Source of the DNA: Nitrosophilus alvini
GTDB lineage: Bacteria; Campylobacterota; Campylobacteria; Campylobacterales; Nitratiruptoraceae
DNA: 64,000 bases
Direction: 5' to 3'
Assembly: GCF_015100395.1 (NCBI RefSeq)
Contig: NZ_AP022847.1
Coordinates: forward strand, 1,633,501-1,697,500
Numbering within the stretch: position 1 is the first letter of the stretch; each line of letters begins with the position of its first letter. The notes under the pieces were generated by a model, which worked only from the letters and a program-made list of their open reading frames with translations, did not search any database and was not told where the DNA came from. The position numbers and the translations under genes are program-made. This document shows positions 5,681 to 23,471 of this stretch, piece by piece.

Positions 5681-6100
5681 TTATCCCTTTACCTGTGCTG
5701 TGTGCGGATGCTCGCTTCCAGCATAAACTTTCAATTTTTTAAGCATCTGTTTTCCGAGTTTTGTTTTCGGAAGCATACCCCGTGTAGCAAGTTTAAATAG
5801 TTTTTCCGGATTCTTTTTTAGAAGATCTTCGAGTTTTTCACTTTTAACACCGCCAAAATAACCAGTATGTCTATGATACTCTTTGTTTTCCAGCTTGCTT
5901 CCGGTAAACTTGGCTTTTGATGCATTTATAACAACAACAAAATCGCCACAGTCAACATGCGGTGTATAAGAAGGCTTATGTTTGCCTCTAAGTATCGTTG
6001 CGATCTTTGTTATGAGTCTACCGAATGTTTCTCCTTCGGCATCCAAAACAATCCAATCTCTTTTAACCTCTTCAGGTTTTACCATTTTAGTAAACTTCAT
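5681..6100 (-). CDS. rplM: 50S ribosomal protein L13 (uL13)
   Basis: A 139-residue protein with the family blocks [37 protein letters not shown] and [27 protein letters not shown]. It precedes rpsI. The 98-base gap upstream (6101-6198) contains CTAAAAT on the minus strand about 25 bases before the start, a possible -10 for the rplM-rpsI transcript. Confidence 0.98.
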
Positions 6101-6198
6101 GTGCCCAAACCTTTATAGCTTTTTGAGAATGTGATTTTAGAACAGTTTTTATTAAAACTAACTTAATTTAAGTACTTTTTAAAGTTTTCTTCTTTTGC

Positions 6199-8922: not shown

Positions 8923-11261
8923 CAATCTCTTCCACAAACTATTTTATATGGGCAGTATCGGCAATTTTTGAAATCCTGTGTCATAGAAAAATCGACCTCG
9001 CCTTTTTCAAGACTTTTCAAAGTCTCCTTAAGCAGACCCATTTTCTCTCCAAAAAACTTCTCCTCTTTCAACTTCCCGTCTTTCAGGTCATAATAACAGA
9101 CTTTTTCTATCTCTCCGTAACCTAAAGAGAGTAGATAATAAAACTCAAGTTGAAAATCGACAACTTTTTCTTCTTCATATTTTGCCGGCAATTTTATATT
9201 TCCGCTTTTATAGTCTATTACATAAAACCTGCCGCTTTTGCTATCTATTCGGTCTATTTTGCCTTCCAGAACAAATCCTTCAAAAGAAGCGGTCAGATAT
9301 TGTTCCGTTTTAAATACTCTGTACCCCGCCTCAAATCTTTTGATTTCATTTTCACAAAACGGTTCGATTTTTTTTGTCCAGATATCTGTCAAAAATCGCA
9401 TGTACATATTTGATTTGTCCGTTAGTTTTTTCATCTCAGTTTCAAACTCTTTTTTGAGTTCGGCTACACTGAAATATGCATCTTTTTTCCTGTAAACATT
9501 TTTGAGTGCTTCATGAAGAATATTGCCCACTTCATTTTCAGCGACTGCTTTTGTAGGCATTTCAGCACTTTTAAGATTTTTGATATATTTATAGTAAAAC
9601 CTTCTTTTGCACTCCAGCAGGTCTTTTAGTTTCGTAGCGGAAATTTTCTCTTTTTTGAAATCGTAATAGAGTTTTATCTCTTTGTTGGTTCTCTTTTTGG
9701 GGGTATTGACAGAAAAAAGTGTTCCTGCAATCTCTTTTTCAGCATAACTCTTTTTTTCAAAAAAGCCGAACTCCTCTATAAGCCTGGAAGGAGAATCAAT
9801 ATCGTTTTTCACATAACAGACCGCACATTTTTTGGCTTTTCTAAAAAGTTCGTAGTAGTAATATTTCTGAAGATTTTCTCTATCATTTCGGGTTGGAAGA
9901 TTTGCCGATCTTCTGACTTTCGAATCCAAAAATATATCTTTTTCGCTCGGCTTTGGCACAATCCCTTCATTGAAATCCGGGATAATCACCCCTTCAAAGC
10001 TGCATCCTCTGCTCTCAAGAAGCCCCATTACTGTTATCTTTCCCCCCTGTACATCGTCAATCGACCTCTTTTGCAGTCTATTTAGAAAAATCCTAAGTTT
10101 TTTTGCGAAAGTATACTCTTTCATCACACCAAACAGTATTTTGAACTTCTCTATCTCATCTTCAAAAATTTCCCTCTCTTCCGCTTCGCTTTCAACCGCA
10201 GCTTCGACAACTTTTCTAAATTCATCAAAACCTGTACGTTTAGATGATATTTGCAGAAAATTTTCTGCAATTTCGGATAGAGACTCTTTTTCTATTTCAG
10301 TTTGGTTTTTTATAGACTCCCTATCGTTTATATACTCCAAAAGAAGAGTGAGCTTTTTATATGTAGATGTGGAGGAGTAGTCAAATCCCATTGCAAAATT
10401 GAGGTTGCGGGGCAGATCAAACAGATAGAGATACTCTTTGAAATTTTCGTCCGGCAAAATTACAGCAATATCTTCAGGCTTAATGCCGCTTTTCACAAAA
10501 TCGTATATTTTTTTCTTTACAAATCCCGTCTGGGAGATTCTGTTTTTAAAAGATACAGCCTCTGCCGGCTTGGGCAAATTGAGTGCTTTTTTTTCCAATA
10601 TCTCTTTGTTTGTCAAATCAAGGCTGTAGGAAAAGCCGACTTCAAGAGTTCCAAAGCCCAGTTTTTCCAACTTTTGGCTCATTTTCTCATTGAAGCCGTT
10701 AGCCGTATAATTTATAAAGAAGTCTCTCTCTTTTGAAATAGAATCAAACAGTTCAAGTTCAAAATTGGTAGCAAAACCTTCAAGATACAACTTTACATAC
10801 TCTATCTGACCGATAAAATTTCTGTTCAACCTGTAAAGGGAGGGAATCTGAAATCTGTCAAAAAAAGAGTATTCTTCAAGAAGCTTTTCGTATCTTCTTT
10901 TAAGTTCCTGAAGGATATCAAGATGCTCGCTGTACTCTGCATATATATCGGTTATATAAAGTGAAGATATATCGACCTTTTCAACTGAAAGCTCTTCAAA
11001 AAATCTGAAAAAAAAATCGCTGTTTTTAAGAAATTTGAAAAAATCACGCTCTATTTTAAGTTTTTTGAAGTCATCAAAATCTGCAGCCCGCCCCAGCAGT
11101 ATAACTCTCGTATCTTCGTCAACCGCCTTTTTTCCGGGAACGATAACGGATCTTTTTATAAACTCATCTATCGTTACCATTTTGGGCAAAAAAACATTCC
11201 CTTTTGCCTGAAGCCTTGCACGTTCCTGCCTGATAGCTCTAACTGTAGGGAAAATAAGCAT
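8922..11261 (-). CDS. addB: AddB-type nuclease subunit with iron-sulfur motif
   Basis: A 779-residue protein of the AddB/ATP-dependent nuclease subunit B type. The N-terminal two-thirds is a degenerate helicase-like region without a clear Walker A motif. The C-terminal third carries a RecB-family nuclease: GNILHEALKNVY, EGKIDRIDSKSGRFYVIDYKSG (catalytic Asp and Lys in DYK) and QLEFYY. A cysteine at LLECKRRF plus CRYCPYKIVC at the extreme C-terminus form the four-cysteine staple known to hold a 4Fe-4S cluster in AddB. It starts 35 bases after ccoH, and its stop overlaps the addA start. The pair replaces RecBCD for double-strand-break repair. Confidence 0.86.
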   Translation of the reverse strand: MLIFPTVRAIRQERARLQAKGNVFLPKMVTIDEFIKRSVIVPGKKAVDEDTRVILLGRAADFDDFKKLKIERDFFKFLKNSDFFFRFFEELSVEKVDISSLYITDIYAEYSEHLDILQELKRRYEKLLEEYSFFDRFQIPSLYRLNRNFIGQIEYVKLYLEGFATNFELELFDSISKERDFFINYTANGFNEKMSQKLEKLGFGTLEVGFSYSLDLTNKEILEKKALNLPKPAEAVSFKNRISQTGFVKKKIYDFVKSGIKPEDIAVILPDENFKEYLYLFDLPRNLNFAMGFDYSSTSTYKKLTLLLEYINDRESIKNQTEIEKESLSEIAENFLQISSKRTGFDEFRKVVEAAVESEAEEREIFEDEIEKFKILFGVMKEYTFAKKLRIFLNRLQKRSIDDVQGGKITVMGLLESRGCSFEGVIIPDFNEGIVPKPSEKDIFLDSKVRRSANLPTRNDRENLQKYYYYELFRKAKKCAVCYVKNDIDSPSRLIEEFGFFEKKSYAEKEIAGTLFSVNTPKKRTNKEIKLYYDFKKEKISATKLKDLLECKRRFYYKYIKNLKSAEMPTKAVAENEVGNILHEALKNVYRKKDAYFSVAELKKEFETEMKKLTDKSNMYMRFLTDIWTKKIEPFCENEIKRFEAGYRVFKTEQYLTASFEGFVLEGKIDRIDSKSGRFYVIDYKSGNIKLPAKYEEEKVVDFQLEFYYLLSLGYGEIEKVCYYDLKDGKLKEEKFFGEKMGLLKETLKSLEKGEVDFSMTQDFKNCRYCPYKIVCGRD

Positions 11262-11296
11262 CCATGCCCTTTGGGTAGCTTTTAAAAAGTGTACCG

Positions 11297-11791
11297 CTAT
11301 TCTTTGGGGATATCCAGAGTTGAGAGTTTATATGTTTTGAAACCTTCCACATCAGGCAGCTTCACTTTCGCAATAATATTCCATCTGCCTTCCAAATCCA
11401 GATCAACCTCTGCTACATATCTGTCGCCAATATATTTCGCGTCAATTTTTTTGTCATATTTTACAGTCTCGGGCCGTGTTACAAGAAGACTGACTTTAGC
11501 ATTTTCAACAATATTTCCGGATTTATCAAAAAGTTTGAAAACTATCCGGTTTTTACCAAGTTCAAGTTTTTCGTTCTCTATAGCCAATTTATAATTTTTA
11601 TCAAAAATCTGCTGCTTTTTTAAAATATCGTTAATATTATCATCAACTGTATGGTAGTTCAACATATAACTGTTGTCCATTTCCACAGGATTGTCAATTG
11701 CAGCTTTTATTGTCCAGCCCACAAGCCCTGCCGAAAAAAGAACAAGACCTATTATAAAGTGCGGCCAGTAGTTTTTGCTTTTTTCTGTCAT
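11297..11791 (-). CDS. ccoH: FixH/CcoH-family cbb3 oxidase assembly protein
   Basis: A 164-residue single-span membrane protein. One transmembrane helix (about residues 12-32, FIIGLVLFSAGLVGWTIKAAI) is followed by the family segment NSYMLNYHTVDDNINDI and a periplasmic beta-rich domain (NRIVFKLFDKSGNIVENAKVSLLVTRP...). FixH/CcoH is needed for stable assembly of cbb3 oxidase. Its start overlaps the stop of the upstream TPM-domain gene by four bases (ATGA type), which couples it to the cco cluster. Family recognition rests on layout, context and the short conserved motif rather than strong similarity. Confidence 0.75.
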   Translation of the reverse strand: MTEKSKNYWPHFIIGLVLFSAGLVGWTIKAAIDNPVEMDNSYMLNYHTVDDNINDILKKQQIFDKNYKLAIENEKLELGKNRIVFKLFDKSGNIVENAKVSLLVTRPETVKYDKKIDAKYIGDRYVAEVDLDLEGRWNIIAKVKLPDVEGFKTYKLSTLDIPKE

Positions 11792-12399
11792 TTTTTTGCA
11801 AATCTCCCATATAGATATCTTATCAAAATCAGAATGATCGTACCATAGAAAAAGAGCTTCAGTACATCATATACATATCTGTTGTCACTACCTACGGATG
11901 AGGCCAGTTCAACGCCATAAGATGATGATACCTGGTCTACAATATCTGCATATCCGTTCAGCAATGCAGCCTGAACATTGGCTTTACCGCCCTTTTCCTG
12001 GGTAAGGAGAGGCAAAATCGAACCTTTCCAAGGTAGTGGACTGAGCACTGTCTCTTTGTCAAATCTACTTTTCACATCATCTGAACTAATAATATCTATT
12101 TTTTTATCATTTAAAGCAATGGTTAACAATATAAAAGGCGGCTTTAAACTTTTGCTAACATTTTCTTCATACTCTTTAAAATTGGTGCCGCTTATGTGGT
12201 TAACTGCTACAATATAGACAGAAACGCCGGTTTTTTCCTGAAGCTCTTTTCCCATCTCATCTATTTTCATGACAGTTTTTTCGGGCAGTATATTGTCATT
12301 TTTCAGAATGAAATCGGAAGCGTTGAGAAAGCCGGTTAGAAGAAAAAAAAGAAAGGGAGCCAAAAGAGCTCCTTTCTTAAATTTAAAACTTTTTGACAT
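11788..12399 (-). CDS. TPM-domain membrane-anchored protein, unknown role
   Basis: A 203-residue protein with an N-terminal signal/anchor (LAPFLFFLLTGFLNAS), a periplasmic domain resembling the TPM (TLP18.3/Psb32/MOLO-1) fold (KIDEMGKELQEKTGVSVYIVAVN, then PFILLTIALNDKKIDIISS), and a C-terminal transmembrane helix (LFFYGTIILILIRYLYG). TPM domains in other proteins assist membrane-complex repair or act as phosphatases; no catalytic role can be claimed here. Its start follows the stop of the 33-residue gene without a spacer (TAAATG), and it overlaps ccoH, so it is co-translated within the cbb3 cluster. A role in oxidase assembly is inference from position. Confidence 0.7.
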   Translation of the reverse strand: MSKSFKFKKGALLAPFLFFLLTGFLNASDFILKNDNILPEKTVMKIDEMGKELQEKTGVSVYIVAVNHISGTNFKEYEENVSKSLKPPFILLTIALNDKKIDIISSDDVKSRFDKETVLSPLPWKGSILPLLTQEKGGKANVQAALLNGYADIVDQVSSSYGVELASSVGSDNRYVYDVLKLFFYGTIILILIRYLYGRFAKK

Positions 12400-12501
12400 T
12401 TAACCTACATACGCATGAAAAGGTGTAAGAACTGCCCATAATGTTATAAGAGCAGAAATCAGCAGCATAACTCCGATTATCGCTTCAAACTTATCAACCA
12501 T
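12400..12501 (-). CDS. 33-residue single-span membrane protein in the cbb3 cluster
   Basis: This small open reading frame starts MVDKFEAIIG and ends PFHAYVG. It consists of a short acidic N-terminus, one hydrophobic helix of about 21 residues (AIIGVMLLISALITLWAVLTPF) and a five-residue tail. It is supported as a real gene by a near-perfect ribosome site, AAGGAGG, five bases before its ATG, and by direct TAA-ATG abutment with the following TPM-domain gene. It resembles in size and layout the small accessory subunits of terminal oxidases (CcoQ, CydX, CcoM types), but I recognise no family. It could stabilise the oxidase or be a translational coupler for the next gene. Confidence 0.75.
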   Translation of the reverse strand: MVDKFEAIIGVMLLISALITLWAVLTPFHAYVG

Positions 12502-12548
12502 AACGGCCTCCTTTTGAATAGTTGTATTTTAACATATTTCAAGAATAT

Positions 12549-14006
12549 CTATTTTGTACCCTTCATTTTCTTTTCAACAATGTCCCACCTGGGGTAGACA
12601 AAGACAGTTTTTCTGGTGACGGATATTTTCGGGTCGTCAACAGCATACGCTCTGATGGTAATAGGAATAGGCGTATCTTTTCTGCTCTCTTTTACCAGAG
12701 GTTTTCTGGCATAGAGTATAACTATCTTTTTAACCTTTTTACCCGCTATCAGATTGAAAGGCTTTTTGGGTCTTTTTATAGCTATATCTTTATTGTCCGC
12801 TATCTCGAAATAGTACCTGTGGTCTTTTGTATCTGTATTCTGAAACAAAAATACATATGAGTTCTCCACTCTTCCGTCCGCTGTTATTTTGTACAGCTGG
12901 CTCGTTCTGTTTATGTTAAGGAGCATACTCTCTTTTTTTGTCCCCATCCAGAAGAGTGCTATTAGAACTATGGTAAGAGCCACAAGGTATGCTATCACTC
13001 TGAATCTGAATACTCTTGTCTTTCCTCCGCTCTCAAGAGCGTGGTAGCTTGTCCATCTGATAAGGCTCTCTTTTCCCAGTGCCCCCATCACTTTGGTACA
13101 TGCGTCTGCGCACTCGAGGCAGTTGATGCACTCAAGCTGCATACCCTTTTTTATATCTATATGGGTAGGACATACTCGCACACAGCTGTCACAGTATGTA
13201 CACTCTGCCTCCGGGTCTTGTTCCAGAAGCTCTTTTCTGTTTTTTACTCTTTTGACTATCTGGTGTGTCTGGGGATCCTCTTCATATATCTTACCGCCTC
13301 TTTTATAGTCGTATACAGTCTGGAAGGTATCATCATCGTACATTACCGACTGTACTCTTGCGTATGGGCAGATATAGATACAGAAATTCTCCTTTATAAA
13401 CACGATATCTGCTATTAAAAAAAGTGCCGTACTTATCCAAAAACCCATAAGTATCGGATGATCGCCCGGGTTCTGGATATATTGGAAAAACTCCTCGGGC
13501 GGTATGAAATACCATAGAAAATCCGCCGCCGCTACAAATGCAAGAACGGACCACAGAAGTATAGCTATCAGTTTTTTTGCCTGATTTGAAGGTTTACTCA
13601 TATCAGGCTCTATCTGTTTATTATCTATTCTTTTTCTCAGTCTAAGCAGTTTAGTCTCGAACAGATCTCTGTATATAACCCGAAATATAGTCTGCGGACA
13701 TGCCCATCCGCACCACACTCTTCCCCCCAGTGTGGTTAGAAAAAATATCCCCAAAAACAGCAGCAGAAGCACGAATGGCATAAGGTACAGCTCCTGCATA
13801 TCGAATCTGACGAAAAACAGATGCAGTTGCTTCTGATCGAAATTCAGCAAAAAGAAATGGTTGCCACCTATCTTTATAAATGGCAATACTAGTGCTATTA
13901 TCGTTATAGCCCCGTAAAACAAATATCTCTTGTATCTGTATGGCACCCACCCTCTTAGGTAGTCGCTGGTTTTCATCTTTTTTGCATCTGCTGCTGTCTG
14001 GGTCAT
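12549..14006 (-). CDS. ccoG: cytochrome c oxidase accessory protein CcoG (FixG/RdxA family)
   Basis: A 485-residue polytopic membrane protein with ferredoxin clusters. Features in order: transmembrane helices around residues 29-48 and 75-95, the GRVWCGWACPQTIF motif near 95-108, further helices near 155-175 and 190-210, two 4Fe-4S motifs (CTYCDSCVRVCP near 270 and CINCLECADAC near 293), a helix near 335-355, and a C-terminal Ig-like periplasmic domain. CcoG proteins reduce Cu(II) to Cu(I) for cbb3 oxidase assembly in Rhodobacter. The gene follows the DUF4006 gene by a few bases and belongs to the cco transcript. Confidence 0.93.
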   Translation of the reverse strand: MTQTAADAKKMKTSDYLRGWVPYRYKRYLFYGAITIIALVLPFIKIGGNHFFLLNFDQKQLHLFFVRFDMQELYLMPFVLLLLFLGIFFLTTLGGRVWCGWACPQTIFRVIYRDLFETKLLRLRKRIDNKQIEPDMSKPSNQAKKLIAILLWSVLAFVAAADFLWYFIPPEEFFQYIQNPGDHPILMGFWISTALFLIADIVFIKENFCIYICPYARVQSVMYDDDTFQTVYDYKRGGKIYEEDPQTHQIVKRVKNRKELLEQDPEAECTYCDSCVRVCPTHIDIKKGMQLECINCLECADACTKVMGALGKESLIRWTSYHALESGGKTRVFRFRVIAYLVALTIVLIALFWMGTKKESMLLNINRTSQLYKITADGRVENSYVFLFQNTDTKDHRYYFEIADNKDIAIKRPKKPFNLIAGKKVKKIVILYARKPLVKESRKDTPIPITIRAYAVDDPKISVTRKTVFVYPRWDIVEKKMKGTK

Positions 14007-14289: not shown

Positions 14290-15117
14290 TTACTCGCCAA
14301 GTGATAGGATATATATGCCTACCGCTTTTTCCTGTACCGGAGTCAATCTTCCTTTAAAAGAAGGCATAGTACCGATATGTCCGCCTATTTTACCTCTTTT
14401 AAGAACTTCCGAAACAAAAGCATGTGTACCATATTGAGTTAGGTCAGGAGCCATTCCTCCCATTCCTTTCCCATCTGGGCCGTGACAACTTGCACAGTAT
14501 GTTGCAAATACCTCGGCGCCTTTCCCTTCACCTTTAAGTCCGCTTGCAACATATTCCGCAACTGCATCTATCTCAGCATCATCTTGAACAAGTCCCCCCG
14601 GCATCTCTCCCATAGGAAAGCCAAGACCTTTGGAGCCGTTTTTAATAGTATCTATTACACCTTGCTTATGTCCCCACTTTGTCAAGTCTCCTGCTTTTCC
14701 TTCGATCCCGGTGGCATCTATACCGTGGCATGGTGAACACTGTACAAGAAAAACGCCTTCACCCATACCCATCAGATCTTCCTGAGTCGGATTGGCCCAT
14801 TTGCTTTCAAATCTTGCCGTATGTGCCGCAACCTCTTCGTTATACTCTCCTATCTGTGAATATGCATTTAAAGGATATCCCACAAACCAATACCAGAATC
14901 CCCAGATAATAGTTCCCATAAATGCAAGAGACCAGCCTATAGGAGAGTTGTTTTTGTATTCGCCTATTCCATCCCAGTTTTCATCTTTCAGTTTACCTTC
15001 AGATTTTCCCTCTTTTATATCTTTAAAGTACTTGCCGACTACCCCGACCGTGAGTATCAGGATAACAGCAGCACCAAGCAATGCTAAGGCGTTGACGTTA
15101 TCACTTAGCCAGTTCAT
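14290..15117 (-). CDS. ccoP: cbb3 cytochrome c oxidase, dihaem subunit III
   Basis: A 275-residue membrane-anchored dihaem cytochrome c. Two N-terminal transmembrane helices (about 8-28 and 60-82) are followed by two class I cytochrome c domains with haem sites CSPCH (127-131) and CASCH (208-212). The methionine ligands are probably in the GEMPGG and GTMPSF segments. CcoP passes electrons from periplasmic cytochrome c to CcoO/CcoN. The start lies directly after the ccoQ stop. Confidence 0.95.
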   Translation of the reverse strand: MNWLSDNVNALALLGAAVILILTVGVVGKYFKDIKEGKSEGKLKDENWDGIGEYKNNSPIGWSLAFMGTIIWGFWYWFVGYPLNAYSQIGEYNEEVAAHTARFESKWANPTQEDLMGMGEGVFLVQCSPCHGIDATGIEGKAGDLTKWGHKQGVIDTIKNGSKGLGFPMGEMPGGLVQDDAEIDAVAEYVASGLKGEGKGAEVFATYCASCHGPDGKGMGGMAPDLTQYGTHAFVSEVLKRGKIGGHIGTMPSFKGRLTPVQEKAVGIYILSLGE

Positions 15118-15336
15118 TTACTGCTCCTTTTTATCATTTGCTTTTTCATCGCTTTTGATCTCCTCGACAGGAGGAGATCCAGGCTCATCATCAAGTGCGA
15201 TTTTTCCATATTTTTCATAATCTCTTAGACCCTTCTTTTCACTTCTGTACAGATGCACTATATATCCGTACAAAACTAGAGTCAAAAACACTACAAAGAA
15301 AAAATAGGCATAAGCCTGTATCTCTCTTAAGTCCAT
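15118..15336 (-). CDS. ccoQ: cbb3 oxidase small subunit CcoQ
   Basis: A 72-residue protein with one transmembrane helix (AYFFFVVFLTLVLYGYIVHLY, residues about 10-30) and a charged cytoplasmic tail (RSEKKGLRDYEKYG...). It sits between ccoO and ccoP, where CcoQ always lies. The family is poorly conserved in sequence; layout and position carry the call. CcoQ stabilises the association of CcoP with the CcoNO core in other bacteria. Confidence 0.87.
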   Translation of the reverse strand: MDLREIQAYAYFFFVVFLTLVLYGYIVHLYRSEKKGLRDYEKYGKIALDDEPGSPPVEEIKSDEKANDKKEQ

Positions 15337-15340
15337 CTTT

Positions 15341-16024
15341 TTATTTCAACCTGTTCAGATATGCAATAAGAGCGACAATCTCTTTTATCTGACCGTTTTT
15401 GAATGCATCTTTTACATCCTGGTTTTTCATCTGTGCTACTATCTCTGCCGCCTGTTTTTTTGCATTCTCAACCGCTTCTTCATAACTGCCGAGCGGTACA
15501 TCGATTTTTCCGTCGCCGTCAATATCTGTATCATAAGGAACATTGAACACCTTTTTGACTGTCAATGCCTCAGCATATGCCGTTTCTATATCAGTATCGT
15601 TTTTAAACATATGCTTATATGCAGGCATAATAGAACCGGGAACAACAGAAGTGGGATCCCACATATGGTTTTCATGCCAGTCCGTCGTTCTGTAGTTTCC
15701 TACCCTGTGAAGATCGGGACCAGTTCTTTTAGAACCCCAAAGGAAAGGTCTGTCATATGCATACTCTCCACTGAGACTGTACATTCCGTATCTATCCGTT
15801 TCAGATTTAAAAGGTCTGATAAGCTGCGAATGACACGCATTACAACTATCTTTTATATAAACCTGCCTTCCTGCAAGCTCAAGTACCGTATATGGCTTCG
15901 TTCCCACTAAAGGTCTTGACTGCTGTGCAAAATCAGGCAATATCTCGATAAGTCCCGCAAAAGCGATTACTACAAATACACCAACCGCAAAGAAAAAGGG
16001 ATTTCTTTCTAACCATCCAAACAT
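15341..16024 (-). CDS. ccoO: cbb3 cytochrome c oxidase, monohaem subunit II
   Basis: A 227-residue membrane-anchored monohaem cytochrome c. An N-terminal helix (about residues 9-29) is followed by the haem site CNACH (61-65), the family segment QLIRPFKSETDRYGMYSLSGEYAYDRPFLWGSKRTGPDL and HMWDPTSVVPGSIMPAY with the methionine ligand. A short insertion, DTDIDGDGKIDVPLG, resembles an EF-hand-like calcium loop, also seen in some epsilonproteobacterial CcoO. It is followed after four bases by ccoQ and preceded by ccoN. Confidence 0.95.
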   Translation of the reverse strand: MFGWLERNPFFFAVGVFVVIAFAGLIEILPDFAQQSRPLVGTKPYTVLELAGRQVYIKDSCNACHSQLIRPFKSETDRYGMYSLSGEYAYDRPFLWGSKRTGPDLHRVGNYRTTDWHENHMWDPTSVVPGSIMPAYKHMFKNDTDIETAYAEALTVKKVFNVPYDTDIDGDGKIDVPLGSYEEAVENAKKQAAEIVAQMKNQDVKDAFKNGQIKEIVALIAYLNRLK

Positions 16025-16034
16025 TCATACCTCC

Positions 16035-17501
16035 TTATGCTGCCATCGGTGAAGCAAATTGAGGTTCTTTCTCAATCGCTTTTGACGCCGTCATAGTTTT
16101 ATAGAAATTATAAGCCCACATAAACAGACCAATAAAGTACATCAAACCGCCTATTGCTCTTAATGTATAGTATGGATGAAGAACTGTAACAGTATCTATG
16201 AAAGAGTAGGCAAGGTTACCATACTGGTCAACAGCTCTCCACATCATACCCTGTGTAATACCTGCAATCCACATGCTTGAGAAGTATAGAACTATACCGG
16301 TTGTCTGCAGCCAGAACTGCATCTCAAGAAGTTTTTTGCTGTAAATCTCTCTTTTGTAAAATCTCGGAGCCATATGCATTAGGGCAGCAATTATCATAAA
16401 TCCTACCCATCCGAGCGTTCCGTCATGAACGTGTCCTGGAATCCAATCGGTAAAGTGTGCAAGTGCGTTAACAGATTTGATTGACTGAATCGGCCCTTCA
16501 AGAGTACTCAACATATAGAACGTTGAAGCAAGAACCATAAATTTGATTAAAGGATTCTCTTTAAGCTGATTCCACTCACCTTTCATGGTAAGAAGCATGT
16601 TAAGAGCACTTCCCCAGGACGGAAGAATCAACACAACAGAGAAAATAGAACCCATTGTCTGCATCCAGTCCGGAACTGTAGAGTAGATAAGGTGGTGTCC
16701 GCCTGCCCAAAGATATACAAACATCAATCCCCAGAAGGAAAGAAGCGACAGTTTATAAGAATATACAGGCTGTCCTGACTCTTTAGGTAGGAAATAATAG
16801 ATCATAGCGATTATCGGAGTCGTGAAAACAAACGCAACTGCATTGTGTCCGAACCACCACTGAACCATCGCATCATTTGTTCCTGCGTACCATGAAACGG
16901 AGTGCAACCAGCTTCCGTATCCTGTAACAAGTCTTGTAGGTACTTCCATATTATTGAAAAGATATAGCATCGCAACTGCAAGAAATGCTGCTATATAATA
17001 CCAAAGAGAGATATAGAGAGTCTTTTCTCTTCTTATTCCTATAAGTCCAAATATACTTACACCCCAAAGAACCCACAGTACAACGACCAGAATATCGAGT
17101 GGCCATTCAAACTGTGCATACTCTTTTGATGTTGTTACTCTGAAAAGTAGAGATACAACAGCCAAAAGAGCAGTAATAAAATAGATCCAGAAATGGACTT
17201 TTCCAATAGTCATAAGAAACTTGGACTCTGCCATTGATACTTTAAGGACCCTCTGTCCTACATAATACCATGTGGCAAATATACCGCTGACTGTAAATCC
17301 GTATGCCACAACATTTGTGTGGATTGGTCTCAGTCTGCTAAAAAGACTGTATTCTCCGAAAATATAGTTAAGTTCGGGAAAAGCCAACTGGAAGGCGATC
17401 AGAACGCCAACGCCCATACCCAGAATTCCGAACAAAATGGTCAGATAGCTAAACCATTTTGCAACAGTATAATCATACTCAACTGCAGGATTGTGTTGCA
17501 T
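16035..17501 (-). CDS. ccoN: cbb3 cytochrome c oxidase, catalytic subunit I
   Basis: A 488-residue haem-copper oxidase subunit with about 12 transmembrane helices. Key metal-ligand regions are visible: RLRPIHTNVVAYG (low-spin haem His), WWFGHNAVAF (CuB His and the cross-linked Tyr region), AGGHHLIYS (two CuB His) and HVHDGTLGWVGF (high- and low-spin haem His). The reaction is reduction of O2 to water with proton pumping at very low oxygen. It is the first gene of the cco operon; AAGGAGGAGC precedes the ATG. The operon lacks the copper ATPase CcoI and CcoS, which are expected elsewhere in the genome. Confidence 0.97.
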   Translation of the reverse strand: MQHNPAVEYDYTVAKWFSYLTILFGILGMGVGVLIAFQLAFPELNYIFGEYSLFSRLRPIHTNVVAYGFTVSGIFATWYYVGQRVLKVSMAESKFLMTIGKVHFWIYFITALLAVVSLLFRVTTSKEYAQFEWPLDILVVVLWVLWGVSIFGLIGIRREKTLYISLWYYIAAFLAVAMLYLFNNMEVPTRLVTGYGSWLHSVSWYAGTNDAMVQWWFGHNAVAFVFTTPIIAMIYYFLPKESGQPVYSYKLSLLSFWGLMFVYLWAGGHHLIYSTVPDWMQTMGSIFSVVLILPSWGSALNMLLTMKGEWNQLKENPLIKFMVLASTFYMLSTLEGPIQSIKSVNALAHFTDWIPGHVHDGTLGWVGFMIIAALMHMAPRFYKREIYSKKLLEMQFWLQTTGIVLYFSSMWIAGITQGMMWRAVDQYGNLAYSFIDTVTVLHPYYTLRAIGGLMYFIGLFMWAYNFYKTMTASKAIEKEPQFASPMAA

Positions 17502-17769: not shown

Positions 17770-18465
17770 TCACTCTTTTATCTTATATCCGATTCCCGGG
17801 AAGTTTTTTATCAATGTTTTGGAACTTTTTTGTCTCACTCTCTTAACCAGTGCTCTAAGAGCAGCTTCAGTAAAAATATCATCCTGCCATACAGTTGAAC
17901 GTATCTCTTCGATCGTAACAACTCTTCCAAGATTTTTTGCAAGAAGTTCAACAAAGAGGAGTTCTTTTTTTGTAAGTATTATAGGCTCTTTTTTTGAATT
18001 TAAGAGTTCTCTTTTTTTCATATCAAAAACAAATCCCTCACCCAGGTTCACAAAAATATTTTCTTTATATAGTCCTTCTGCAATTTCACATAAAACATCA
18101 AGCAACTTCTCCGGTGTAAAAGGTTTTACGAGATATTTATTTACACCTACATCAATCGCTTTGAAAAGCCTCTCTTTTTCGCTATATGCCGTTAACAAAA
18201 GAACAGGGGTGTTTTTTGATATCTGTTTGATCTCTTTTGCAAATTCAAGACCGTTGGTACCTGGCATTTCGATATCTGTTACTACTATATCAGGTTTTTT
18301 CGACATAAAAATTTCCATTCCTTCCTGTGCATCGGAAGCGGTATAAAAATTTTTAAAGTCACCGGAGAGAACATCTTTTAAAAGCTCTCTAATATTTTTT
18401 TCATCCTCCACATATAATAGAGATAACTCTTTAAGCAGTTTTTTGCAATTTTCCATCTTTCTCAT
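17770..18465 (-). CDS. OmpR/PhoB-family response regulator
   Basis: A 231-residue two-component regulator. The receiver domain (about residues 12-125) has the acidic pair in YVEDE, the phosphorylation Asp in VVTDIEMPG near 62, and Lys in YLVKPFTP near 113. The C-terminal winged-helix DNA-binding domain (about 140-231) shows LTKKELLFVELLAKNLGRVVT, RALVKRVRQK and GIGYKI. The start overlaps the kinase stop by 35 bases (or 26 with the internal ATG at codon 4), so the two are translated together. Its position next to the cbb3 operon matches C. jejuni Cj1491c, which I recall as the regulator of the butyrate-responsive BumSR system. That correspondence is from gene order only. Confidence 0.92.
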   Translation of the reverse strand: MRKMENCKKLLKELSLLYVEDEKNIRELLKDVLSGDFKNFYTASDAQEGMEIFMSKKPDIVVTDIEMPGTNGLEFAKEIKQISKNTPVLLLTAYSEKERLFKAIDVGVNKYLVKPFTPEKLLDVLCEIAEGLYKENIFVNLGEGFVFDMKKRELLNSKKEPIILTKKELLFVELLAKNLGRVVTIEEIRSTVWQDDIFTEAALRALVKRVRQKSSKTLIKNFPGIGYKIKE

Positions 18466-20134
18466 ACTCCAAAGGTAGTTTAATTATAAATTCTGCACCA
18501 TCATCATGATTTCTGGCTTCAAGAGTACCGTTCATACTCTGTTCAATAATCATTTTTGACATATAAAGGCCTATGCCGGTTCCTTGTTTACTATGTTTGG
18601 TAGTAAAATATGGTTCAAAAATTTTATCAATAATCTTTTTATCAATCCCTCCTCCGTTATCTTTTATAAAAATTTCAACAAAATCTTTTTTCCCGTTGCC
18701 TGTCTGCTCACTCTTGGTTTTCACACTTATTTCTATCTTTTTGTTTTCAGGATTTTTCTGATTTAATACATCTTTCGCATTATTTATTATATTGACAATT
18801 ACCTGAGAAAATTCATTGGAATATCCCTCTATGGAGATATTTTTCTCTATATCCATTTTTATCTCGATTCCACTTTTTTCAAGACTTCCTTCAACTATTG
18901 TCAAAGAGTCTTTTATAACCTTTTCTATATTGAAACTCTCTTTCTTCTTGTTGGGTTTGAAAAAATTCTGAAAATCACTTATAGTTTGGGACATTCTTTC
19001 TATGATAGAGTTGCTTTTTTCATACAGAGTCTGCATCATTTTCTTATCTAATGTATTCTCATCATGTCGCTTTTTTATGTTATATAGTAAAATTCCAAGC
19101 TCCATAAGCGGCTGTCTCCACTGATGAGCTATATTTCCTATCATTTCGCCCAAAGAAGCAAGACGCGCCTGCTGAAACATCAGTTTGTCTTTCTGTCTGT
19201 TTTTCTCAACCTCTTTGATTACTCTTTTTTCAAGAGTAAGATTGAGTTCTCTTAGTTTTCTTGTCTGCTCCTCGACTCTTCTTTCAAGTTCGCGATTGAG
19301 TTTTTCCAGGTCCTCTTCTTTTCTTTTCAACCTCTCCTGAAGTTTGACCGATTCGGTTACATCATATCTTATTGCTACAAATTCTACAATTTTGCCGTTT
19401 GAATCCACTATCGGCACTACAGTTGTATTCACATAAAAAGTACTTCCGTCTTTTGCTCTGTTTTTAACTGTGCCTTTCCAGATTTTTTTTGAAAGAATTG
19501 TATTCCAGAATTTTTCATACACCTCTTTCGGAATATCAGGATGTCTTACGATATTGTGATTTTTGCCTATTAACTCTTCTCTTGAATATCCCGATATTTT
19601 GCAAAATTCGTCATTTACATAGGTAATTATGCCATTGATATCCGTTTTTGAAACTATATTGCTACTGTCTATAGCCTGTTTATATTGATGCAGCAGAAAA
19701 GTGTTATAGCTTCTGGCTTTTTCCAGAAAAATTTTTGTTTCCGTCTCTTCAAGAATCTCATGAAGTTTTTTTATATCGACGGGTTTCAACAGATATCTGT
19801 CAACTTTCGCCTCAATAGCCTCAAGAAGACAGTCCGTACTTTTATTGCCAAAAAGTATAATCGGAACATGTTTATTTATTTTTCTAATCTCTTTTGCCAT
19901 AGATATGCCGTCCATTTCGGGCATCTTTGTATCGCTGATTACGATATCCGGTTCTGTTTTTTCAAAAATTTCCAATCCCTCTTTTCCGTTTGATGCTACA
20001 TGAATTTTTGGAAAATAGAAGTTCAGAACAGGTAGCATCTTTTTTTGTTCCAATACCGAGTCTTCTACATAAAGCAGAGTAAATTTTCTAAGCGGTCTGC
20101 GCGTAAGTTTTATCTTTTTCATTTTCAGTGACAT
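18431..20134 (-). CDS. hybrid-type histidine kinase: receiver, Aer-like PAS, HisKA-type core
   Basis: A 567-residue cytoplasmic sensor kinase without transmembrane segments. Order: receiver domain (about 15-130; phospho-acceptor Asp68 in VISDTKMPEMDG), PAS domain (about 155-262), coiled coil (about 262-325), phospho-acceptor motif NIAHQWRQPL with His337, and a HATPase domain with N-box IINNAKD, G1 DNGGGID and G2 GTGIGLYMSK. The PAS contains NIVRHPDIP and KNRAKDG, the signature of the FAD-binding PAS of the aerotaxis receptor Aer, which suggests redox sensing. Its start overlaps the upstream membrane-protein gene by 10 bases. Next to a terminal-oxidase operon, a role in adjusting respiration is plausible but unproven. 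Confidence 0.9.
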   Translation of the reverse strand: MSLKMKKIKLTRRPLRKFTLLYVEDSVLEQKKMLPVLNFYFPKIHVASNGKEGLEIFEKTEPDIVISDTKMPEMDGISMAKEIRKINKHVPIILFGNKSTDCLLEAIEAKVDRYLLKPVDIKKLHEILEETETKIFLEKARSYNTFLLHQYKQAIDSSNIVSKTDINGIITYVNDEFCKISGYSREELIGKNHNIVRHPDIPKEVYEKFWNTILSKKIWKGTVKNRAKDGSTFYVNTTVVPIVDSNGKIVEFVAIRYDVTESVKLQERLKRKEEDLEKLNRELERRVEEQTRKLRELNLTLEKRVIKEVEKNRQKDKLMFQQARLASLGEMIGNIAHQWRQPLMELGILLYNIKKRHDENTLDKKMMQTLYEKSNSIIERMSQTISDFQNFFKPNKKKESFNIEKVIKDSLTIVEGSLEKSGIEIKMDIEKNISIEGYSNEFSQVIVNIINNAKDVLNQKNPENKKIEISVKTKSEQTGNGKKDFVEIFIKDNGGGIDKKIIDKIFEPYFTTKHSKQGTGIGLYMSKMIIEQSMNGTLEARNHDDGAEFIIKLPLEYEKDGKLQKTA

Positions 20135-20814
20135 GTATGAATAGATGCGTTTGGATCAAAAATGAACCAATATCCTTTATATATTATATAAAATCCATAT
20201 AAGATTATAACAACGGAAGCTAATCTAATCATTAAATTTCTAAAATTGCTGCTTTTCAAAAATCCTGCAATTGTACCAAGCCCGAAAAGAACGGGAATAG
20301 TGGAGAGTCCGAAAATTGTCATAACTATCGCACCCCAAAAAGGCGAACCTGTAGCGGCTGCAGAGGCTGCAAAGAAATAGACAAGTCCGCAGGGAAGAAA
20401 TCCGTTGAGCATACCAAGAAAAAAGAAACTTGGAAGCGTTTTTGAATGTATCAGTTTTGAAAACAGTTTTTTAAAAAAGGTATATTTTGTAAGAGAGACC
20501 TCTATAGAAGTCAAAAATTTAAGATTCCCTGTCAATGAGATACCCATCAAAACCATAAAAAGACCGATTGCCAGATAGAGTGCACCCTGTGTTTTGGCAG
20601 AAATCAGCAGAATACTTCCCAAAAATCCAAATACTGCACCTATAATAGCATAAGAAAAAGTTCTTCCGGTATTGTAAATCAGATGTGCCAGAAGAGAGTT
20701 CAGTTTTCCTTTGGACGGATCTACTTTCGCTGTCGTATACGCTATGACAAATCCCCCGCACATCCCTATGCAGTGCCCAAGACTACCCAAAAAAGCAACA
20801 GTGACTATACTCAA
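20125..20814 (-). CDS. UreH/SafE-like polytopic membrane protein (possible metal transporter)
   Basis: A 229-residue protein with about six transmembrane helices. The N-terminus holds the motif GSLGHCIGMCGGF, hallmark of the UreH-like/sulfite-exporter-related family in which HCxGMCGG is conserved; NGFLPCGLVY marks the internal repeat. The C-terminus ends HTCH. Cysteine/methionine motifs inside the membrane and constant association with cbb3 genes suggest copper or nickel transport for metalloenzyme assembly; this is inference. No ATG is available: the frame is open only from a TGA 51 bases upstream, and TTG at 20814 or ATT/ATA just before it must be the start. AAAGGATT lies about 25 bases before the TTG, favouring a start slightly upstream. 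Confidence 0.75.
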   Translation of the reverse strand: MSIVTVAFLGSLGHCIGMCGGFVIAYTTAKVDPSKGKLNSLLAHLIYNTGRTFSYAIIGAVFGFLGSILLISAKTQGALYLAIGLFMVLMGISLTGNLKFLTSIEVSLTKYTFFKKLFSKLIHSKTLPSFFFLGMLNGFLPCGLVYFFAASAAATGSPFWGAIVMTIFGLSTIPVLFGLGTIAGFLKSSNFRNLMIRLASVVIILYGFYIIYKGYWFIFDPNASIHTCH

Positions 20815-20918
20815 AAAATCAATAGTCTCTATAAAGAATCCTTTTTTAAAAGTTTGAAGTCAAAAGAGAAGGCTAAAATCTACCCTCTCCCTTACTTCAT
20901 CCCATAAAGGAAATTATA

Positions 20919-22973
20919 TCAAAATCTGTAGTTTAAATTTGCATATATGTATCTTCCCGGTTCATTTATAAGCAGAGGTGCAGTATCTCCTACAAGAGCT
21001 CTCCCAACATATGTATTGTTTGCCGCATAAGTTTTATCGAAAAGATTATCGATACCAGCATTTACCCTGAGTGAGTCGGTTATCTCTTTGCCCGCTTTGA
21101 GATTTACTACTCCCCAACCGCCGACAGCCTGTTCTCCGTTATCTTCATCATAACTGCTGTAACCTTTCTGTGCAACCCCTTCGATACTTCCAAACCAGTC
21201 GCCATTATCGTATGTAATAGCAACTCTTCCTCTAAGAGGAGGGATTTGGGCCATATCCTCATCAGTCTGTGTAGCACTTGGTTGTGTATCTTTTTTACCT
21301 CTTTGGTATGCAATAGAACCTTCAAGCGAAATCTCATCTGTAAGAAGTGCAAATGCGGAGATATCTCCTCCATATATATGGGCATCTATATTTGCCCAAG
21401 TAAGTGTGTTTCCTTTTTTGTACGCGTATATATAGTCTTTCAGATCGCTGTAAAAAAGAGTTCCTCTAAATTTTACATCAGCAATTTTTGTTTCGAATCC
21501 AAGATCTACTTCTCTGTTTTTCGTCTCTTTGAGATCAGGATTTCCTTGTCTCATCCACATCCCACTCATATACATTATCGCATATAGCTCCTGTGCATCC
21601 GGCACCCTGATACCCTGTCCGAAGCCTATAAATACGGAACTATCTTTCGAATAGTTATATTTGGCAACCAGATTTGCGCTGAAATTATTGTATGTCTTGC
21701 TAGTTTTACCTGCAAAATAGTTTTGTATATCCGCTATTGATACGATAGTAGGATCATCAAGATTGTTTGCATCGATATCTGTTTTATCGTATCTTGCGCC
21801 TACTTTGATAGTATAGTTTCCGATATTTTTGACCGCTTTTGCAAAAAGGGCTCTGTTTTTAGTATCAACGTCGGGAATTCTTACCTGTACAGGATTTTCG
21901 GCTGGTTCGCGCAGATACATACCGTTCCAGTTTCTAAGAGATGTATCCACTCCCACTTTCCATTTCACACCGGAAGCAGCAAAAGAGTTTTCGATTTTCG
22001 TACCCTTTATAGTACTTCTAACCCTGTGAGTTCCATATTTCATAGGATTTGATGAGGCATTTCTAAATTCGGTTCCCATATCGTGTCTTACATGAGAATA
22101 GTAAGCTTTCACAGCAAGTTTGTCAGAATATTCTGAAAGATTTTTTATTACATACTCTCCGTTCGCCATTACAGTTTCGTCAAGTTGCGCATCCATCTTG
22201 AAAGCGGGATACAAAACATCGGTTGCTTTGTCTTTGTAAACACTCAGTTTCGCCTCCTGATTGTCTGCTACTGAAATATTGGCTTTGGTCCATAATATAT
22301 CTCTTTTATACGCTTTTTTATCTTTATATTCAGGTTTATAGGCATCATCTGCCGTCGCACCCAAAGCTTCAATATTCTGTTGGGCAAGAGTTTTGCCGTC
22401 GCCGTCTTTGTACTGATCACTGGACTCACGGGAGTAACCCATCAGTATTTTTATTTTGTCGTCTCCAGCATTTCCGGTAACAGATATTTTTTTATAGTCA
22501 AAACTTCCTGCGGTCAAAGAGAGCTCCCCTTCAAGACCTTTTTTGGGATCTTTAGTCTTGACATCGATCACTCCTCCCATACTTCCAAAGTTCTCAACAT
22601 CAAAAGGTCCCTCTTTTACAACAACCGTATCTATCTGGGAAGCGGATATGTGCATAGAAGGAGGATCCATTCTGTTGGGACATCCACCGTAGATTTTGGC
22701 TCCGTCAATCAAAACATTTATATCATCTCTTTTGAAACCTCTAAGAAGCAGATCGTTTCCTATCGCACTGGCTCTTACAAGATTTATTTCCGGAAGCGAT
22801 TGAGATAGTATTTCAGCCAGGTCCTGCTGTCTTGTAAACTCTATCTCAACTGCACTTACCTCTTTTTCAACACTCCTTTCGGCTTCGCTTTCTATTATCA
22901 CCTTTTCTACTGTAACGCTTTGGGCAAAAAGTGCGGAACCAAGAACTAGTGACAGTACGATTTTATTTCTCAT
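20919..22973 (-). CDS. oprC: TonB-dependent outer-membrane copper receptor, OprC/NosA-like
   Basis: A 684-residue outer-membrane receptor. It has a signal peptide (RNKIVLSLVLGSALFAQS), a plug domain (about 45-140, with LLLRGFKRDDINVLIDGAKIYGG) and a 22-strand-type barrel ending in ...YANLNYRF with the terminal Phe. The plug holds CPNRMDPPS: Cys98 and Met102 form CxxxM, and the barrel holds HDM with His297 and Met299, i.e. HxM. In OprC of Pseudomonas aeruginosa a CxxxM-HxM site binds copper, and CPNRMDPP is typical of OprC/NosA. It would import copper with TonB-ExbBD energy. It lies upstream of the cbb3 operon and its two-component system. AGGAGC precedes the ATG. I see no clear Fur box in the AT-rich leader. 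Confidence 0.85.
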   Translation of the reverse strand: MRNKIVLSLVLGSALFAQSVTVEKVIIESEAERSVEKEVSAVEIEFTRQQDLAEILSQSLPEINLVRASAIGNDLLLRGFKRDDINVLIDGAKIYGGCPNRMDPPSMHISASQIDTVVVKEGPFDVENFGSMGGVIDVKTKDPKKGLEGELSLTAGSFDYKKISVTGNAGDDKIKILMGYSRESSDQYKDGDGKTLAQQNIEALGATADDAYKPEYKDKKAYKRDILWTKANISVADNQEAKLSVYKDKATDVLYPAFKMDAQLDETVMANGEYVIKNLSEYSDKLAVKAYYSHVRHDMGTEFRNASSNPMKYGTHRVRSTIKGTKIENSFAASGVKWKVGVDTSLRNWNGMYLREPAENPVQVRIPDVDTKNRALFAKAVKNIGNYTIKVGARYDKTDIDANNLDDPTIVSIADIQNYFAGKTSKTYNNFSANLVAKYNYSKDSSVFIGFGQGIRVPDAQELYAIMYMSGMWMRQGNPDLKETKNREVDLGFETKIADVKFRGTLFYSDLKDYIYAYKKGNTLTWANIDAHIYGGDISAFALLTDEISLEGSIAYQRGKKDTQPSATQTDEDMAQIPPLRGRVAITYDNGDWFGSIEGVAQKGYSSYDEDNGEQAVGGWGVVNLKAGKEITDSLRVNAGIDNLFDKTYAANNTYVGRALVGDTAPLLINEPGRYIYANLNYRF

Positions 22974-23126: not shown

Positions 23127-23157
23127 AAAAGTGTTGAGAAAAAATCTCAACACTTCA
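23127..23157 (-). terminator. Rho-independent terminator of the carA transcript
   Basis: Perfect 11-base stem AAGTGTTGAGA/TCTCAACACTT with a five-A loop; on the minus strand the stem is followed by TTTTTTATTTAT. It lies 90 bases after the coiled-coil gene that ends the carA transcript. The rest of the gap (22974-23126) is the AT-rich upstream region of the copper receptor, with TAATAT-like -10 candidates but no operator I can name. Confidence 0.85.
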
Positions 23158-23246: not shown

Positions 23247-23471
23247 CTATTTTTTACATCTTAAAAGTTCGATAGATTTTATCTTCTCTACCCTCTTTTC
23301 AAGCTCTTCTAGCTCTTTTAAATTTTTATCGCATCTCTTTTGAAGCTCAATTTTTTTTTCTTTGAGAAACTCAAGCTGTTTTTCTATCGTATCCAGACCT
23401 ATGGCACACTGTTTTGCAGCCTCTTCTTCTTTTTCAATAACCCATTCGGTCAGTTTTTTGATAAATTCCAT
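23247..23471 (-). CDS. small coiled-coil protein, unknown function
   Basis: A 74-residue highly charged protein that is almost entirely helical. Residues about 28-70 (IEKQLEFLKEKKIELQKRCDKNLKELEELEKRVEKIK) show a continuous heptad pattern. There is no signal peptide or membrane segment. Its ATG overlaps the carA stop as TGATG, with AGGAGT just upstream, so it is translationally coupled to carA. I recognise no family. Confidence 0.7.
   Translation of the reverse strand: MEFIKKLTEWVIEKEEEAAKQCAIGLDTIEKQLEFLKEKKIELQKRCDKNLKELEELEKRVEKIKSIELLRCKK

Follow-up and report, generated by a model that had tools for sequence, protein, structure and literature searches.

The window, a stretch of 64,000 nucleotides from the genome of Nitrosophilus alvini, a vent-type bacterium, contains a locus in which the genes of a TonB-dependent receptor and a DsbD_2 membrane protein lie 5′ of a kinase gene, a regulator gene and the ccoNOQP genes of the cbb3 oxidase. 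The locus is encoded on the minus strand. In the direction of transcription it consists of carA, a gene for a protein of 74 amino acids (aa), the receptor gene, the DsbD_2 gene, the kinase gene, the regulator gene, ccoNOQP, a DUF4006 gene, the CcoG gene, a TPM-domain gene and a FixH-like gene. A preliminary description of this DNA had placed the receptor and the HCxGMCGG protein 5′ of the kinase, the regulator, ccoNOQP and CcoG, and the open reading frames (ORFs) and their order were found as described. The CPNRM and HDM sequences of the receptor (residues 98–102 and 297–299), as well as the HCIGMCGGF and the terminal HTCH of the DsbD_2 protein, are likewise at the positions named there. The features of the locus are as follows.

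20919–22973, minus: OprC-like TonB-dependent receptor, 684 aa (ORF, profile search, structure match, tree)
22668–22682, minus: CPNRM codons; Cys98 and Met102 are the plug residues of the putative copper site (sequence, OprC alignment)
22077–22085, minus: HDM codons; His297 and Met299 are the barrel residues of the putative copper site (OprC alignment)
22194–22196, minus: codon of Met260, a fifth invariant residue (alignments)
20125–20832, minus: DsbD_2 membrane protein with HCIGMCGG(F), LPCG and C-terminal HTCH; proposed AUA start at 20832–20830
20839–20843, minus: Shine-Dalgarno sequence AAGGA, 6 nucleotides (nt) 5′ of the AUA (read from the sequence)
18431–20134, minus: receiver-PAS-histidine kinase, overlapping the end of the DsbD_2 gene by 10 nt
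17770–18465, minus: OmpR-type response regulator
16035–17501, minus: ccoN
14290–16024, minus: ccoO, ccoQ and ccoP
12549–14006, minus: CcoG (TIGR02745, 490 bits, cut-off 316.7)
11297–12399, minus: TPM-domain protein and FixH-like protein, 3′ of ccoG
23128–23156, minus: terminator-like stem of 12 pairs with a T run, in the stretch that separates the receptor gene from the carA side (neither promoter-like nor terminator-like sites exceed their frequency in shuffled sequence)

The OprC-like receptor

The best phmmer match of the receptor among solved structures is OprC (1.7e-33). In the phmmer alignment, Cys98, Met102, His297 and Met299 of the receptor correspond to Cys143, Met147, His323 and Met325 of OprC, which are the copper ligands of that protein (PMC8610252). 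Relatives of the receptor, 432 in total, were drawn from 16 genomes and from 80 named GTDB loci. The four residues, as well as Met260, are invariant in 17 of 17 and in 77 of 77 relatives in two alignments; the search pattern behind the set of 77 partly builds in the conservation of NRM, and Cys98, Met260, His297 and Met299 are not part of it. Of the methionines above the copper site, only Met260 is invariant, and it is also invariant in five proteobacterial copper receptors. The paired CxxxM/HxM motif was not found in the five other TonB receptors of the genome, nor in BtuB, FepA, FhuA and CirA of E. coli. The putative copper site of the CxxxM-HxM type that had been read from the sequence is thus borne out by the alignment with the OprC ligands and by its conservation.

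The assignment of the receptor to the OprC/NosA type is supported by several lines of evidence. The best-scoring NCBIfam model is that of the copper receptor, TIGR01778, and OprC leads the phmmer matches. In a tree of 37 rows the Campylobacterota receptors join the proteobacterial copper receptors with a support of 100/99, apart from BtuB, FepA, FhuA, CirA and the other five receptors of the genome. The AlphaFold2 model of the receptor has a mean predicted local distance difference test (pLDDT) score of 88.9, and its 28 best structural matches are all OprC chains. A siderophore or vitamin B12 receptor was rejected on the curated-model score, the tree position and the structural matches. Within the tree the Campylobacterota receptors are the sister group of the proteobacterial copper receptors and are not nested among them. 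The receptor clade is therefore the sister clade of OprC/NosA and a predicted OprC-like copper receptor. With OprC of Pseudomonas aeruginosa and NosA of P. stutzeri (TIGR01778; PDB 6FOK; PMC8610252) it shares the TonB receptor fold, the CxxxM of the plug, the HxM of the barrel and one more invariant methionine. It differs from them in its low identity over the whole chain (about 20%), its separate and well-supported clade, its score below the NCBIfam cut-off and its linkage to cbb3 or nos genes and, in some lineages, to ExbB, ExbD and TonB genes of its own.

The low identity to OprC, which extends over much of the receptor beyond the ligand region, also bears on the substrate. Instead of free copper ions, the receptor might take up a copper chelate, such as a chalkophore or the copper complex of another organism, or another soft metal, for instance silver. 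CrtA (BfrG) of Bordetella pertussis, a second TonB receptor linked to oxidases, takes up Cu(II) in chelated form (PMC12914433); its proposed role is likewise the copper supply of respiratory heme-copper oxidases. However, the receptor retains all ligands for ionic copper of OprC, whereas conserved Cys or Met residues are absent from CrtA proteins, whose genes are followed by PepSY_TM genes; none of the features of CrtA applies to the receptor of the window. We consider a substrate of this kind unlikely.

Receptors of orthologue grade are present in the families f1, f4–f7, f9, f14 and f15 (family labels of this analysis), in about 145 of 397 Campylobacterota genomes as counted from the listed rows. 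In f10 and f11 no such receptor was found among the 397 genomes, only weak matches to other receptors. Two metagenome-assembled genomes named as Gammaproteobacteria (L095, L124) carry receptors which nest inside the Campylobacterota clade, through either horizontal transfer or a binning error; in L095, ExbB/ExbD-like genes are located 3′ of the receptor gene.

Gene neighbourhood and distribution

In nearly every intact locus of the Nitratiruptoraceae, judged by the named loci, the gene order is carA-receptor-DsbD_2-kinase-regulator-ccoNOQP. The exceptions are two genomes without DsbD_2 at that place and one without the kinase pair. The families f15 and f11 possess the same block without the receptor (L142, L145, L152). 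In the Hydrogenimonas-type genomes the receptor gene stands alone between carA and ccoN (L051, L096, L126, L151), and in G209, which lacks the receptor, carA and ccoN are separated by a gap of about 280 bp (L150). The receptor had been regarded as inserted at this site. Relative to the core block it is indeed interposed, but the insertion is not local: an event confined to the N. alvini genome is rejected, since the receptor occupies the same place across the Nitratiruptoraceae. A single clade of the receptors adjacent to cco was also rejected, as the approximately unbiased (AU) test speaks against a common clade for those of Hydrogenimonas and those of the Nitratiruptoraceae (log-likelihood difference 219, p 1.7e-72). 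Recruitment of the receptor to the oxidase locus may have taken place repeatedly; alternatively, two lineages may have retained an old linkage, with transfers occurring elsewhere. Both histories fit a functional link and neither proves it.

Linkage to other genes of copper respiration is seen in further lineages. The receptor gene of G228 lies behind regulator, kinase and TonB genes and directly ahead of nosZ, with NosD genes also following. The order in Sulfurovum (L085) is regulator, kinase, small protein, DsbD_2, receptor, NosL. The ExbB and ExbD genes adjoin the receptor gene in five other loci. The gene neighbourhood in several lineages thus supports a link between the receptor and copper respiration.

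The DsbD_2 protein is present in 377 of the 397 Campylobacterota genomes, and it tracks the cbb3 oxidase. The preliminary description had proposed that co-occurrence with the oxidase be examined. In 80 genomes, which were not a random sample but were chosen to include most of the DsbD_2-negative ones, DsbD_2 and ccoN agree in 74 (both present in 60, both absent in 14). All six exceptions are drafts, five with ccoN only and one with DsbD_2 only. Genome G220 encodes NosZ and has neither ccoN nor DsbD_2. The receptor was found in none of the 15 genomes without ccoN.

The copper brought in by the receptor might also serve the cell in general, or chiefly NosZ, and the adjacency to cco would then be an inherited or chance order. 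The N. alvini genome does encode NosZ, away from the locus of the window; the receptor gene lies directly before nosZ in G228 and before NosL in L085, and in Sulfurimonas and Sulfuricurvum it is found among housekeeping genes. On the other hand, by our own count NosZ is present in about 17 of 30 receptor-positive and 12 of 24 receptor-negative genomes of the free-living families, and so NosZ as a client that would explain the distribution of the receptor was rejected for lack of a clear association. Furthermore, the slot between carA and ccoN is filled by two separate receptor lineages and is empty in the receptor-less G209. General use, or use mainly by NosZ, is in our view rather unlikely, though the least unlikely of the alternatives considered.

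Several neighbouring genes were noted in passing. The 74-aa gene between carA and the receptor gene (23247–23471) is conserved with 50–68% identity across the Nitratiruptoraceae and has no Pfam or NCBIfam match. A second TonB receptor of 726 aa without the copper motif is encoded in L030 (G000:C1:1075000-1094000, 5750–13174). After its gene come those of a further DsbD_2 protein, of two NapH-like 4Fe-4S membrane proteins and of a 2-hydroxyglutaryl-CoA dehydratase D-component. The same cluster also adjoins the OprC-like receptor gene in L103 and L114.

The DsbD_2 protein and its start codon

The product of the gene following the receptor gene matches DsbD_2 (PF13386) with 179.5 bits, against a gathering cut-off of 24.9. 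Nine close relatives all retain the HCxGMCGG motif and the Pro-Cys-Gly of LPCG. Their C-terminal tails vary in sequence, but most are rich in His, Met or Cys (HTCH, HHMAH, HHSH, HHMHMMQMKMH). These features would fit a role in thiol or copper handling. In Sulfurovum and f9 a small protein of 152–188 aa without a Pfam match is encoded directly 5′ of DsbD_2 (L085:8764-9222, L149:6581-7078, L153:6984-7550). The DsbD_2 matches of G219, G273 and G357 contain in-frame stops near the end, and that of G385 (L200) contains several internal ones; these may be broken copies or matches running beyond the stop.

The start codon of the DsbD_2 gene is the most surprising part of the locus. Of the canonical start codons available to it in the window, a TTG at 20814 comes first; no Shine-Dalgarno sequence precedes this TTG. 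Six codons 5′ of the TTG is an ATA (20832–20830), located behind AAGGA with a spacer of 6 nt. This ATA is codon −18 counted from the HCxGMCGG motif, and in f4, f6, f7, f9, f14 and Sulfurovum codon −18 is a canonical start. In the family of the window, codon −18 is ATA in eight sequences, ATC in three and ATT in one (12 sequences), and in f15 it is ATT in nine, ATA in eight and ATC in two (19 sequences). AUA, AUU or AUC (AUH) thus stands at this position in 31 of the 33 sequences screened in the two families, relocated copies being left out of the screen. The 28 sequences used for comparison, which come from other lineages, from relocated copies and from the exceptions, show ATG (25), GTG (two) or TTG (one). 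The in-block exceptions with ATG in the family of the window are L039, from the same contig as L053, and L083. L039 and L053 belong to a draft genome (G009) in which the kinase and regulator genes are in pieces. The DsbD_2 copies outside the block in G008, G354 and G184 start with ATG, and G177 has an ATC start although its copy is outside the block. The non-canonical starts were recorded in the Nitratiruptoraceae, f15 and two further genomes:

Window, 20830–20843, minus
L037, L038, L040–L042, L045, L046, L054–L058, L076, L142 and L152
L156–L169, L172, L173, L196 and L198–L200

It might be argued that translation starts at a later canonical codon or involves a frameshift, and that AUH at −18 is merely a conserved Ile codon in an untranslated or differently read stretch. 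The TTG of the window, six codons 3′ of the AUA, and an out-of-frame ATG immediately 5′ of the AUH in some f15 sequences would allow this. However, at least a dozen sequences contain no ATG, GTG or TTG from the in-frame stop to the HCxGMCGG motif and no canonical start ahead of the conserved first helix. The 17 codons leading up to the motif vary in the manner of coding sequence (0.20, 0.04 and 0.58 differences at the first, second and third codon position in f1). Codon −18 coincides exactly with the canonical start of other families, and a sequence resembling the Shine-Dalgarno sequence is spaced for it. A match of this kind of at least 4 nt precedes 31 of 31 AUH genes and, under the same rule, 17 of 28 canonical ones. 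The first and second positions of codon −18 show zero variation in either family. A start elsewhere is thus very unlikely. In control genes of the same loci (receptor, CcoN, CcoO, CcoP, PurA and two more) a canonical start was found at the expected place without exception; CarA and HisZ were left out of this control, as the annotation of their starts in the window is too long. From sequence evidence, the start position of DsbD_2 is non-canonical and conserved among relatives, and the gene of the window probably starts at the AUA rather than at the TTG.

In the DsbD_2 tree the type of start changes at least five times by parsimony, and two of these changes are forced by well-supported branches. 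AUH starts accompany the carA-cco block in f1 and f15. The initiation factor IF3 represses the non-canonical starts of infC (AUU or AUC) and of Streptomyces sigR (GTC) (PMC5472188). By analogy, DsbD_2 translation might be low and sensitive to IF3, and the overlapping kinase gene might thereby also be kept low. DsbD_2 resembles infC and sigR in its conserved non-canonical start. It differs in that it is a respiratory accessory membrane protein and that the third base drifts between A, U and C. The infC gene of N. alvini itself appears to start with TTG.

The kinase–regulator pair and the proposed copper route

The C. jejuni pair at this cco-adjacent position is presumably BumSR. BumSR senses short-chain fatty acids (PMC11796366). 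The kinase of the window shares with BumS, as far as its published description goes, a cytoplasmic PAS domain with Ser, His and Asn at the same spacing: Ser162, His193, Trp210 and Asn225 correspond to Ser20, His51, Leu68 and Asn83 of BumS. It differs in its extra N-terminal receiver and in keeping a Trp where BumS has Leu68. This Trp is tied to the binding of flavin adenine dinucleotide (FAD) in this PAS group and is replaced by Leu in C. jejuni BumS (PMC11796366). The PAS domain of the window kinase matches the FAD-type ancestor described there, and the Leu-for-Trp exchange characteristic of BumS is absent from it. Since the FAD-linked Trp210 is kept, a flavin-based redox sensor would fit better than a copper sensor.

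The preliminary description had proposed a copper route from the outer membrane to the oxidase under shared control. A link to copper respiration is supported by the gene neighbourhood, whereas shared copper control by the kinase and the regulator is not supported. For a pair that senses copper and controls receptor and oxidase jointly, it can be said that the genes are co-directional, that DsbD_2, kinase and regulator genes overlap, and that a different kinase or regulator gene lies just 5′ of the receptor gene in other lineages (L079, L085, L114, L146). However, the pair belongs to the core cco block even where the receptor is lacking (L142, L145, L152), G006 lacks the pair yet keeps receptor and oxidase, and the sensor is a cytoplasmic PAS domain that retains the four FAD-linked residues (PMC11796366). 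Joint control by copper sensing is therefore improbable.

We propose, with reasonable confidence, that the receptor is a TonB-dependent copper importer which mainly serves the adjacent cbb3 oxidase, and that DsbD_2 is a cbb3 accessory with an AUA start. Cys98/Met102 of the plug and His297/Met299 of the barrel would bind copper between them, and the action of TonB would release it into the periplasm. From there it would pass mainly to the cbb3 oxidase encoded next door and probably also to NosZ. DsbD_2 would be an inner-membrane accessory, most likely for thiol or copper handling during oxidase assembly. The AUA start would hold its translation at a low, IF3-sensitive level, and through the gene overlap the kinase may be held down too.

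Several observations weigh against this proposal. The receptor scores 234.2 bits against the equivalog cut-off of 472.45 of TIGR01778, and two further clade members score 168 and 192 bits, so that the family has to be seen as a sister clade and not as an equivalog. In most other families the receptor gene is not adjacent to cco. The co-occurrence tallies ignore phylogeny, and the sample of 80 genomes was selected. The structure model of DsbD_2 is too poor to be informative, with CcdA appearing among noise matches only. The Campylobacteraceae proper have canonical starts inside the block, which shows that AUH is not needed for the block arrangement.

A wider interpretation is offered tentatively, as possible rather than probable. 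The conserved AUA/AUU/AUC start of DsbD_2 in the Nitratiruptoraceae and in Arcobacteraceae-type genomes may be an IF3-gated control point of copper-oxidase assembly, the overlap extending this control to a flavin-type kinase, and the copper receptor may have been recruited to the oxidase locus more than once in the same block. In the C. jejuni cbb3 cluster, ccoNOQP is likewise followed by accessory genes, and cbb3 assembly depends on copper delivery; the study describing this mentions neither a TonB receptor nor Cj1491–Cj1494 (PMC8267372). In the open-access literature, with subscription journals mostly outside the coverage, no report of the receptor clade, of Cj1493 or of the DsbD_2 start codon was found.

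Little is known of how copper crosses the Gram-negative outer membrane on its way to the oxidases. No client enzyme has been assigned to OprC, and the connection of CrtA with oxidases is a recent one. The recurrence of the widespread OprC-like clade next to cbb3 or nos genes suggests client enzymes that could be tested. If conserved as AUA, AUU or AUC, the DsbD_2 start would join a short list of such codons beyond those of infC and sigR. Annotation programs will tend to shorten DsbD_2 and thereby remove its first membrane helix. If the AUH start is true, the control of a respiratory accessory protein by IF3 becomes directly testable.

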